This document shows positions 13,533 through 16,888 of a stretch of DNA of 64,000 nt, one piece after another. The DNA lies in assembly GCA_005776945.1 (NCBI GenBank), contig SXOB01000090.1, forward strand, positions 1 through 64,000, read 5' to 3'. A model generated the notes under the pieces. It did no database searches and had not been told where the DNA came from. It was given only the letters and a program-made list of their open reading frames with translations. This DNA comes from Pseudomonadota bacterium. Lineage in GTDB: Bacteria > Myxococcota_A > UBA796 > GCA-2862545. Every line of letters begins with the position of its first letter. Positions within the stretch are counted from its first letter, which is position 1. A program made the position numbers and the translations under genes.

Positions 13533-15242
13533 ATGACAAACCTCCTCATTGCGTTGTCCCTCACGTCGGCCCGCGCCGCAGAGAACGTCGGCGTGTGGAT
13601 CATCGAGACGCCTGTGAGCGCCACCTTTCTGACGCCCCTACTGGAAGACCAGTGGATGAACAGCGTCAACATTGCCATCGACCCGGCCGACGGTCTGCTG
13701 AGCAGCCCCGTCTGGAACCAGGGCTACGGCAACGCCTCCCAGTTCACAGAAGTCGACTTCACGTACGCCGGCGCCGTCGAGAACGGGCCCGGTCATGACC
13801 TCGCGATCTTCGAAGCGTTCTACATCGGCGATCGCCCAGACTACACGATCACGACCGATCACGACGCTCATGTGGCGGGCGCCACCGTACCCGCGACCGA
13901 CTTCGTCGACGTCGGCGCGACCTACCTGCTCTACGTCAACTACACGGGCCCGTTCGAAGGTGCCGTCTATGGCGCCCTCATCGACCTGTCCGACGCAGGC
14001 GTCCCCGACGGCGTCAGCGTCGACGTCATCCGCATGCGCACCGACGACGACCAGGGCGATCCGCTCAGCCTCGCCCGATTCATCTGCACCGACGACGACA
14101 TCGACAGCGTATGCAACGAGGACGACCTGTGTCCTGGCCATGACGACCGCCTCGATACCGACGGGGACCACCTGATCGACGGTTGCGACGCCTGCCCCAA
14201 GGACCCCGAGCCGTCGGACGACGACCACGACGGCGTGTGCGACGGCGACGATGCCTGCCCCGGCCATCCCGACTCCGACGACGTGGATATCGACGGCCTC
14301 CCCGACGAGTGCGATGCGTGCCCCGACGACCCGGCACCGTCTGACGCCGACGGCGACGGCTCGTGTGACGCCGACGATCTCTGCCCGGGTGAGGACGACC
14401 ACGACGACCCCGACGGCGACGGCGTCCCAAGCGGCTGCGACACCTGCCCCACCGACGCGCCGCCCGACGACGACGACCTCGATGGCGTCTGTGACGCCGA
14501 CGACGCCTGCCCGGGCGAAAACGACACGCTGGACGGCGACGGCGACGGCGCCCCCGACGCCTGCGACCCGTGTCCCGTCGATGCGGCGCCGAACGACGAC
14601 GTCGACGGCGACGGATCCTGCAACGCAAACGACCTTTGCCCCGGCGAGGATGACGGCGCCGACCTGGACCTCGACACCGTCCCGGACGCCTGCGACCCGT
14701 GCCCGGCCGACGCGCTCGACGACTCCGACGGCGACGGCAGTTGCGACAGCGACGACGTCTGCCCCGGTTTTGACGACCTTGCCGACGGCGACGCCGACGG
14801 CCTGGCCGACGGCTGCGACGCCTGTCCCATGCCCGGCGACACCGACGCCGACGCCGATGGCGCCTGCCCGCCCACCGATTGCAACGACGCCAACGACTCC
14901 GTCTTCCCTGGCGCCGACGAAGGCTGCAATGGCCTCGATGACGACTGCGACGGCTTTCCCGGCATCGAAGAAGCCGACGCCGACGGCGACGGCCTCGCCA
15001 CATGCGAAGGAGACTGCGACGACGGCGACGCCGACGCGTTCCCAGGCGCCACAGACACGTGCGGCGACGCCATCGACCAGGACTGCGACGGCCGTGACAC
15101 GCCCTGCACCGACCCTCTCCAGTTCGAACCCATCGAGGAGGAGGGAGGCTGCAACTGCGACAACTCAGGCGCCCCACGACCTTGGGCGCTTTCGAGCCTC
15201 GTGCTCCTGGCCGGCCTCCGTCGCCGCCATCGCCGAAGCTGA
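13533..15242 (+). CDS. Thrombospondin type 3/MopE-repeat surface protein with MYXO-CTERM-like tail
   Basis: A 569-residue secreted protein. A short signal peptide (MTNLLIALSLTSARA) is followed by a globular N-domain (about 20-185). Then come some ten thrombospondin type 3 calcium-binding units (pattern D.DGDG.CDADDLCPGEDD) across about 190-435, and two MopE-like metal-binding units (GCNGLDDDCDG, TCGDAIDQDCDG). The C-terminus has GGCNCDN, a hydrophobic stretch of about 12 residues and an Arg/His cluster, as in MYXO-CTERM tails. In Myxococcota these tails are cut by myxosortase to anchor the protein on the cell surface. The protein is very acidic and presumably needs Ca2+ to fold. The function of the N-domain is unknown. 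Confidence 0.88.
   Translation: MTNLLIALSLTSARAAENVGVWIIETPVSATFLTPLLEDQWMNSVNIAIDPADGLLSSPVWNQGYGNASQFTEVDFTYAGAVENGPGHDLAIFEAFYIGDRPDYTITTDHDAHVAGATVPATDFVDVGATYLLYVNYTGPFEGAVYGALIDLSDAGVPDGVSVDVIRMRTDDDQGDPLSLARFICTDDDIDSVCNEDDLCPGHDDRLDTDGDHLIDGCDACPKDPEPSDDDHDGVCDGDDACPGHPDSDDVDIDGLPDECDACPDDPAPSDADGDGSCDADDLCPGEDDHDDPDGDGVPSGCDTCPTDAPPDDDDLDGVCDADDACPGENDTLDGDGDGAPDACDPCPVDAAPNDDVDGDGSCNANDLCPGEDDGADLDLDTVPDACDPCPADALDDSDGDGSCDSDDVCPGFDDLADGDADGLADGCDACPMPGDTDADADGACPPTDCNDANDSVFPGADEGCNGLDDDCDGFPGIEEADADGDGLATCEGDCDDGDADAFPGATDTCGDAIDQDCDGRDTPCTDPLQFEPIEEEGGCNCDNSGAPRPWALSSLVLLAGLRRRHRRS
14098..14850 (+). repeat. Coding repeats for thrombospondin type 3 units
   Basis: Degenerate tandem units of roughly 70-80 bases built from GAC/GGC/TGC codons encode Asp- and Cys-rich calcium repeats within the gene at 13533. 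They are a likely site of recombination and of spurious open frames on the other strand. Confidence 0.75.
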
Positions 15243-15280
15243 GCCAGCCCGCTAACAGGAGTAAACTCCGCCGAGGCGCC

Positions 15281-15919
15281 ATGACCATCGCTGTGATCGC
15301 CCTCATCGCGTGCACGTCGGACAGCCCGACGGACCCGCAAGGCACGGCACCCACCATGCCCAGTGGGTCCGGACCGGGCACCACCCCCCCGGGTTCTTGG
15401 CCACCGACGGACACGACGAGCTCGCCGGCGCCCGTGGACCCGGACGAGCTCTACGGCACGGTCCCGCCAAGCCCTGTCGACGCACCCGACTTCTCGGTCC
15501 AGAACCGCGACGAGACGCTGCGGTCGCGCGAAGACCTGCTCGGCCACCCCACGGTGATGTGGTTTTACCCGAAGGCCGGCACCACGGGTTGAACCATCGA
15601 GGGTTGCGGGTACCGCGACCTCCAGGAAGACTTCGACGCGCTTGGCGTGGCCATCGTTGGCGTCAGCTTTGACGAGCCCGAGGACACCGAGGAATGGGCC
15701 ATAGACCAGGAGTTCCTGTTCGAACTGTGGTCCGACGTCGACCGCATCCTCGCCGTCCACTACGGTGCGTCCGACGACTACGATGACAACGCACCCAGCC
15801 GCATCACCAAGCTGATCGGGGCCGACGGCTCGCTCCTCTTGGAGTACGTGGAGGACGTCTCGGTCGGCACGCACCCAGACGAGGTCCTCGAAGACTGCCA
15901 GATGTTGTTCCTTCCCTGA
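15281..15919 (+). CDS. Selenocysteine-containing peroxiredoxin (BCP/PrxQ-type) lipoprotein; TGA at 15590 = Sec104
   Basis: A 212-residue predicted selenoprotein interrupted only by an in-frame TGA at 15590-15592. Before the TGA the frame ends VMWFYPKAGTTG; after it the same frame continues TIEGCGYRDL. This is the BCP/PrxQ active site, in which the peroxidatic Cys follows TPG and the resolving Cys comes five residues later. So TGA replaces the peroxidatic Cys (Sec104) and Cys109 is the resolving residue. The conserved active-site Arg is Arg174 (SRITKLIGADG). The N-terminus is a lipoprotein signal (MTIAVIALIAC, Cys11) plus a Pro/Ser/Thr-rich linker to about residue 70, so the enzyme should act outside the inner membrane, reducing hydroperoxides. 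A possible SECIS hairpin follows at 15599. The gene is eight bases upstream of a second selenoprotein gene. A nonsense mutation is the alternative, but the position and the neighbour argue against it. Confidence 0.88.
15599..15622 (+). other. Candidate bacterial SECIS hairpin for Sec104
   Basis: Starting six bases after the TGA, 15599-15609 can pair with 15613-15622. This gives ten pairs including one G-U and one bulged G (15603), with apical loop GTA at 15610-15612. The loop is 18-20 bases from the UGA, within the known bSECIS range. High GC makes chance hairpins common, so this is supporting evidence only. Confidence 0.55.
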
Positions 15920-15927
15920 GGTCTGCC

Positions 15928-16152
15928 GTGGTCACCATCGCGTACTGCGTCGTTTGAAACTACCTCCCAAGGGCCGCCCGGGCGGCGGCCGCGATCGAGT
16001 TGCGAACCGGTGTCACGCCGACCCTGATCAAGGGTCGGAATGGCATTTTCGAAGTGCGCGTGGGCGACAGGCTCGTGGCCAAAAAGGGACCCGAGGGCTT
16101 CCCGGACGAAGAGGAAACGGCCTACGCGGTCGCCTTGGCGCTGGCGACCTGA
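15928..16152 (+). CDS. SelW-like (Rdx family) selenoprotein; TGA at 15955 = Sec10
   Basis: A 74-residue protein visible only if the TGA at 15955-15957 is read as selenocysteine. It starts at GTG 15928 with GAGG at 15918-15921 overlapping the previous stop. The N-terminus reads VVTIAYCVV-Sec-NYLPRA, the beta-strand then C-x-x-U loop of SelW/SelT/SelH thioredoxin-like proteins (Cys7, Sec10). It continues with a helix rich in Ala, then the family's GIFEVRVGDRLVAKK strands and GFPDEEE before the last helix. Length and every motif fit bacterial SelW-like proteins, which often have NYLPRA after the redox centre. There is no signal peptide, so it is cytoplasmic and probably a thiol redox protein. 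It ends two bases before the SDR gene. It contains no ordinary open frame of useful length, so it would escape normal annotation. Confidence 0.88.
15972..15990 (+). other. Candidate bacterial SECIS hairpin for Sec10 of the SelW-like gene
   Basis: GGCCGCC (15972-15978) pairs perfectly with GGCGGCC (15984-15990) around the G-rich loop CGGGC. The loop lies 22-26 bases downstream of the UGA. Position and loop fit bSECIS rules, but the GC richness limits its weight. Confidence 0.5.
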
Positions 16153-16153
16153 C

Positions 16154-16888
16154 ATGAAAGTCGTCCTCCTCGGTGGAACCACGGGAATGGGTCGGGCCCT
16201 TGCGCGCACGCTCGTGGAGAATGGCCACGACGTGTTTCTCCTCGGATTGCCCCCGCAAGAGCTCACTCGCTCTGCAGAAGACTTGTCCGCGCGCAGCCAA
16301 CGCCCCGTTGGCACGGCCGAACTGGACCTCGAGCAGCCGTCGACGTTCGAACCCGCGCTCGACTCGGCAGACGCAGCGCTGGGTTCGTTCGATACTGTCG
16401 TCGTCACCGCTGGCATGTTCAAGGCTCAAGACGCGCTGGAGGCCGACCTCGAATTCACGCGGCGCATGCTCATCGTGAACTACGCCCACCTCGTCATCTT
16501 CTGTGAACACGTCCGCAGGCGACTCCTCGCCCGCGGAGGCGGCACGCTGTGTTGCTTCAGCTCCGTCGCCGGCGACCGCGGCCGCAAGCCGATCGCGCTG
16601 TACGGCTCGTCCAAGGCCGGCCTCAGCCACTACCTGGAGAGCCTCGATCACAGGCACCGCGCGGAAGGCCTGCGCGTCATCACGGTCAAGCCCGGCTTCG
16701 TCCATACGGGCATGACCGCTGGGCTCAAACCGCCGCCGTTCGCAGGCCAACCCGAAGGCGTCGCCAAGGACGTCCTTCGAGCCCTGACGGCCGGTACGCC
16801 CGTGCTCTACACGCCCTGGCCCTGGCGCTTCGTCATGATGATCATCCGCATGTTGCCTCGCTTCGTGATGCGACGCGTGCAATTTTGA
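16154..16888 (+). CDS. SDR-family oxidoreductase (DprE2-like)
   Basis: A 244-residue short-chain dehydrogenase. The dinucleotide motif is GGTTGMGRALA, with VVVTAG where NNAG is usual, Ser in FSSVAGDRG and the catalytic YGSSKAG. The C-terminal PWPWRFVMMIIRMLP resembles membrane-associated SDRs such as DprE2. ATG 16154 follows the SelW-like stop by one base, so it is the third gene of the selenoprotein operon. A start at 16040 would run through the SelW-like gene in another frame and adds no SDR sequence. Its substrate and any tie to selenium or thiol metabolism are unknown. Confidence 0.87.
   Translation: MKVVLLGGTTGMGRALARTLVENGHDVFLLGLPPQELTRSAEDLSARSQRPVGTAELDLEQPSTFEPALDSADAALGSFDTVVVTAGMFKAQDALEADLEFTRRMLIVNYAHLVIFCEHVRRRLLARGGGTLCCFSSVAGDRGRKPIALYGSSKAGLSHYLESLDHRHRAEGLRVITVKPGFVHTGMTAGLKPPPFAGQPEGVAKDVLRALTAGTPVLYTPWPWRFVMMIIRMLPRFVMRRVQF

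Follow-up and report, generated by a model that had tools for sequence, protein, structure and literature searches.

A small gene at positions 15928–16152 (plus strand) of the window, the 64,000-nucleotide stretch of DNA analyzed here, almost certainly encodes a small cytosolic SelW-like thiol-selenol oxidoreductase of the Rdx family, with selenocysteine (Sec) inserted at the in-frame UGA 15955. The computed evidence comprises family membership, a conserved Sec site, a SECIS-like hairpin, the Sec machinery of the host, and gene order in two genomes. An initial annotation had proposed a hidden gene of 74 codons at this place, and its coordinates proved exact on rereading: frame +1 runs from GTG 15928 to the stop codon TGA at 16150–16152, with TGA 15955–15957 in frame as residue 10. 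Translation through this codon confirmed the reported YCVV-Sec-NYLPRA and gave a product of 74 residues including Sec (VVTIAYCVVUNYLPRAARAAAAIELRTGVTPTLIKGRNGIFEVRVGDRLVAKKGPEGFPDEEETAYAVALALAT), in which the segment VVTIAYCVVUNYLPRA is followed by GIFEVRVGDRLVAKK. Standard calling finds no ORF of at least 60 aa in this frame, and the gene is hence missed, as had been anticipated.

Upstream of the GTG, a GAGG at 15918–15921 (plus strand) reads as the probable ribosome-binding site; it lies 6 nt 5′ of the start and shares bases with the stop codon of the preceding gene. The GTG start is supported by the presence of an ATG at the aligned position in several homologues (e.g., ATG GTC ACC ATC in L025). 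The next gene begins at 16154, 1 nt past the stop. The description of a gene packed between its neighbors thus stands with respect to the ribosome site and spacing, but the upstream neighbor is not an ordinary gene, as it carries an in-frame TGA of its own at 15590. In a six-frame search of the 64 kb window, [IVLMF]x[YF]CxxUxY had a single match, compared with 45 for CxxU alone. The observation is real and, given the Rdx match described below, more than chance.

Searching family profiles with the Sec-containing product returned a clear match to Pfam Rdx (PF10262; 43.3 bits, cut-off 22.6; E = 4.4e-11) spanning residues 2–64, and a match to TIGR02174 (CXXU_selWTH; 37.0 bits, cut-off 34.2). These hits, both above curated cut-offs, bear out the SelW/SelT/SelH-type identity assigned at the outset and support the SelW-like interpretation. 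The Campylobacter model NF041051 also aligned (2.9e-15), below that model's cut-off. No other Rdx-family gene above cut-off was found in the host genome. The redox motif C7-V-V-U10 is located near the N-terminus and is invariant in homologues, and the GxFE(V/I) segment appears as GIFEV at residues 39–43. Across 24 aligned SelW-like proteins, the Sec site, Cys7, Y12, P14, G39, K53, F58, and P59 are invariant. Solved relatives retrieved by the family profile include the bacterial structures 3dex, 2fa8, 2oka, 2ojl, 2obk, and 2p0g, human C17orf37, and mouse SelW (2npb).

The Sec site is retained widely. A SelW-like homologue was detected in 38 of 57 relatives (39 of 58 when the host genome is included), and every best match was read through one in-frame TGA, which aligned exactly in all 30 genes inspected residue by residue. 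A further 80 homologues were collected from named genomes, whose records partly overlap the genomes already in the set of relatives; 68 of these have TGA at the site and 12 have Cys. The contig scan that retrieved them used a six-row alignment as the query (a single protein found nothing, and a 24-row alignment was too diverse). These homologues span deltaproteobacteria/myxobacteria, Planctomycetota, Acidobacteriota, Gemmatimonadota, Gammaproteobacteria, and others, with the 12 Cys types from Rhizobiales/Ciceribacter, Streptomyces, Dadabacteria, and an Anaerolineae member. Homologues therefore carry CxxU and, less often, CxxC, the kind of Sec/Cys exchange typical of true selenoproteins. One metagenome assembly titled Klebsiella pneumoniae (CAMAXZ010000006.1, L093) contains a SelW gene of the deltaproteobacterial type, and its title is probably wrong.

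A putative bacterial SECIS hairpin is located at 15972–15990 (plus strand), starting 17 nt downstream of the T of TGA 15955, with a stem of up to 7 bp and a 5-nt loop, CGGGC, containing a conserved G. Folded alone, this hairpin was no more stable than its dinucleotide shuffles (z about 0), so comparative tests were used instead. All five core pairs are present in 27 of the 30 SelW genes of the order, while synonymous recoding gave 5.7 ± 2.1 with a maximum of 14 in 2000 trials; shuffling codons within amino acid and column among these 30 genes reached 27 in 9 of 2000 trials. In a set of 34 sequences extending across phyla, 88% of cells are paired, double changes occur at five of seven pairs, and 24 cells are changed on both sides, compared with 6.5 ± 2.0 expected. 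Covariation was 0.349, against 0.131 ± 0.019 for shuffles (none of 500 reached 0.349) and at most 0.127 for slid controls in which the partner was moved by 1–3 columns. The shuffles do not correct for relatedness, whereas the slid controls retain it; the two agree. Rfam at its gathering thresholds returned no match in the window. On this comparative evidence, the element 3′ of the SelW UGA is assigned as a SECIS stem-loop with a small, G-containing apical loop.

The Sec-decoding trait, whose absence would have spoken against the gene, is complete in the host genome. SelA scored 473 bits (6.7e-142), SelB 249.5 bits over its N-terminal 339 positions (cut-off 242.25), and SelD, with one TGA read through, 366.8 bits (1.0e-109); a tRNA-Sec whose anticodon is TCA is also present, at 63.6 bits against 47. 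Because one TGA interrupts its gene (L021, G000:C14:25824–26747), the host SelD is probably itself a selenoprotein.

Two other readings of TGA 15955 were weighed. The codon might mark a Cys-type SelW gene broken by a nonsense mutation or by a sequencing error, as could be suspected from a draft assembly of 92 contigs and from the existence of Cys homologues. Conservation of the same TGA across independent genomes refutes this: it recurs in 38 other genomes, down to about 40–65% identity, and in 68 of the 80 named ones. Moreover, the frame downstream is conserved with changes in excess at the third position, and a covarying hairpin follows the codon, leaving a pseudogene or error with a negligible probability. 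The open frame, and nothing further, would accommodate decoding of TGA as another amino acid, through a code change (to Trp or Gly) or leaky near-cognate suppression. That proposal was rejected as extremely improbable, given that TGA terminates both the SelW-like gene (16150) and the upstream peroxiredoxin gene (15917), that homologues lacking Sec at the site have Cys there (12 of 80) and not Trp or Gly, and that the host possesses the full Sec apparatus.

Under the preferred reading, Sec insertion into a SelW-like protein, SelB bound to Sec-tRNA-Sec would engage the hairpin that begins 17 nt after the TGA during translation, and Sec would be inserted at UGA 15955 in place of termination. From the computed features we infer translation, fold, redox cycle, electron donor, and cotranscription. 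The product is predicted to adopt a thioredoxin fold in its Rdx variant, and the Cys7-x-x-Sec10 pair most likely cycles via a selenenylsulfide while reducing oxidized substrates; the electron donor would presumably be glutathione or a thioredoxin-type thiol. The gene is probably cotranscribed with the Sec peroxiredoxin upstream and an SDR-family oxidoreductase downstream.

The upstream neighbor (15281–15919, plus strand) is a second selenoprotein gene, overlooked in the initial annotation, that encodes a PrxQ/Bcp-like peroxiredoxin of 212 residues with a lipoprotein-like N-terminus and ends in a TGA stop at 15917. Standard calling splits it into 15182–15592 and 15647–15919. Read through TGA 15590–15592, it matched AhpC-TSA (PF00578, 3.1e-22), with TTGU at residues 101–104. 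In its TTGUTIEGC motif (TxxU), Sec at residue 104 stands where the peroxidatic Cys would be, and residue 109, five positions later, is a candidate resolving Cys. Homologues are widespread in the order, mostly with TGA; they were collected by tblastn alignment, and strict active-site patterns missed them. A SECIS-like hairpin of 19 nt, GGTTGCGGGTACCGCGACC (15602–15620, plus strand), begins 12 nt downstream of the T of the TGA and is shared without change by 25 of 28 distinct Sec peroxiredoxin genes. It encodes GCGYRD, for which many synonymous codings are possible, yet it is nearly invariant. Two homologues with Cys (TGC) at the site, L057 and L058 from genomes G024 and G033, encode the same GCGYRD with changes at three synonymous sites. 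These Cys genes, which keep the residues without the SECIS letters, provide a natural control for the predicted SECIS. Elsewhere in the host genome lies a second peroxiredoxin homologue (G000:C54:42823–43278, plus strand; 51% identity), which is more distant and has one in-frame TGA. Also on the plus strand of the window, 13533–15242 encodes a long Asp/Cys-rich repeat protein with DGDGxxDxCDxCP repeats like those of thrombospondin type 3; its C-terminal segment ends in LAGLRRRHRRS and resembles a surface-protein sorting signal.

The peroxiredoxin, SelW-like, and SDR genes are consecutive and in one orientation, separated by gaps of 8 nt and 1 nt. The SDR gene (16154–16888, plus strand; 244 aa) is probably on the same transcript as the SelW-like gene. 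A genome of the same genus (G001) retains the arrangement Prx(U)-SelW(U)-SDR, at 67% identity for the peroxiredoxin and 70% for the SDR, and there the SelW start codon overlaps the peroxiredoxin stop (TGATG). As an addition to the preferred reading rather than an alternative to it, the SelW-like protein might directly reduce the adjacent Sec peroxiredoxin. This adjacency in two genomes of one genus and ten Prx/SelW pairs in marine reads (PMC2398784) speak for such a partnership, which is nonetheless only weakly suggested because the pair with this peroxiredoxin type was absent from the other 28 relative loci and the 80 named loci, within the stretches examined. Furthermore, most peroxiredoxin homologues start with what appears to be a lipoprotein signal and a low-complexity linker, and SelW has no such signal. 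The peroxiredoxin would thus probably be lipid-anchored in the envelope and SelW cytosolic, placing the two in different compartments. We consider direct partnership unlikely. The broader proposal of a single selenium-based peroxide-defense operon, in which Prx(Sec)-SelW(Sec)-SDR would link a lipoprotein peroxidase of the envelope to a cytosolic SelW in one pathway, is decidedly unlikely.

Bacterial SelW-like selenoproteins were described in 2005–2006 (PMC1088965, PMC1794560), and the Global Ocean Sampling study of 2008 reported 427 of them together with the ten neighboring Prx/SelW pairs (PMC2398784), a clustering repeated in a 2026 review (PMC13188914). Missed selW genes have been described in Epsilonproteobacteria (PMC4607533). 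Both the family and the fact that annotation tends to omit it are already well documented (PMC1088965, PMC1794560, PMC2398784, PMC4607533). The function of Rdx proteins is unsettled (PMC10650576). The present gene shares with the known bacterial members (PF10262; TIGR02174) its size, the CxxU site, the conserved GxFEV and FP segments, a SECIS just 3′ of the UGA, a minority of Cys homologues, and omission from standard ORF calls; it shows no difference of substance from those described (PMC1088965, PMC1794560, PMC2398784) and comes from another lineage. Like Campylobacter jejuni SelW (CJnc60), it encodes a protein of about 80 aa with a UGA read by tRNA-Sec. Read-through to the full-length C. 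jejuni protein was demonstrated by Ribo-seq and proteomics in 2025 (PMC11955535), whereas the evidence here is from sequence, and the protein falls below the cut-off of the Campylobacter-specific NF041051. Both this locus and the Global Ocean Sampling pairs, as described in the published study, have adjacent Sec genes for a peroxiredoxin (TxxU) and a SelW-like protein (CxxU); here an SDR follows, and the peroxiredoxin looks lipid-anchored. Mouse selenoprotein W (PDB 2npb) shares the Rdx family, CxxU, and a similar length, but sequence similarity is weak (E = 5e-4), and eukaryotic SECIS elements reside in the 3′ UTR (PMC1088965).

The SelW-like gene adds a good example to a family that has been known from bacteria for two decades; it is no new kind of thing. 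It is a clear case of loss by standard ORF calling, with a natural control beside it: in the neighboring peroxiredoxin family, Cys genes encode the same residues with the putative SECIS letters dropped. Existing knowledge of selenoproteins is left unchanged by the locus, which gives one deltaproteobacterial order a well-supported pair of SelW and Prx selenoproteins.
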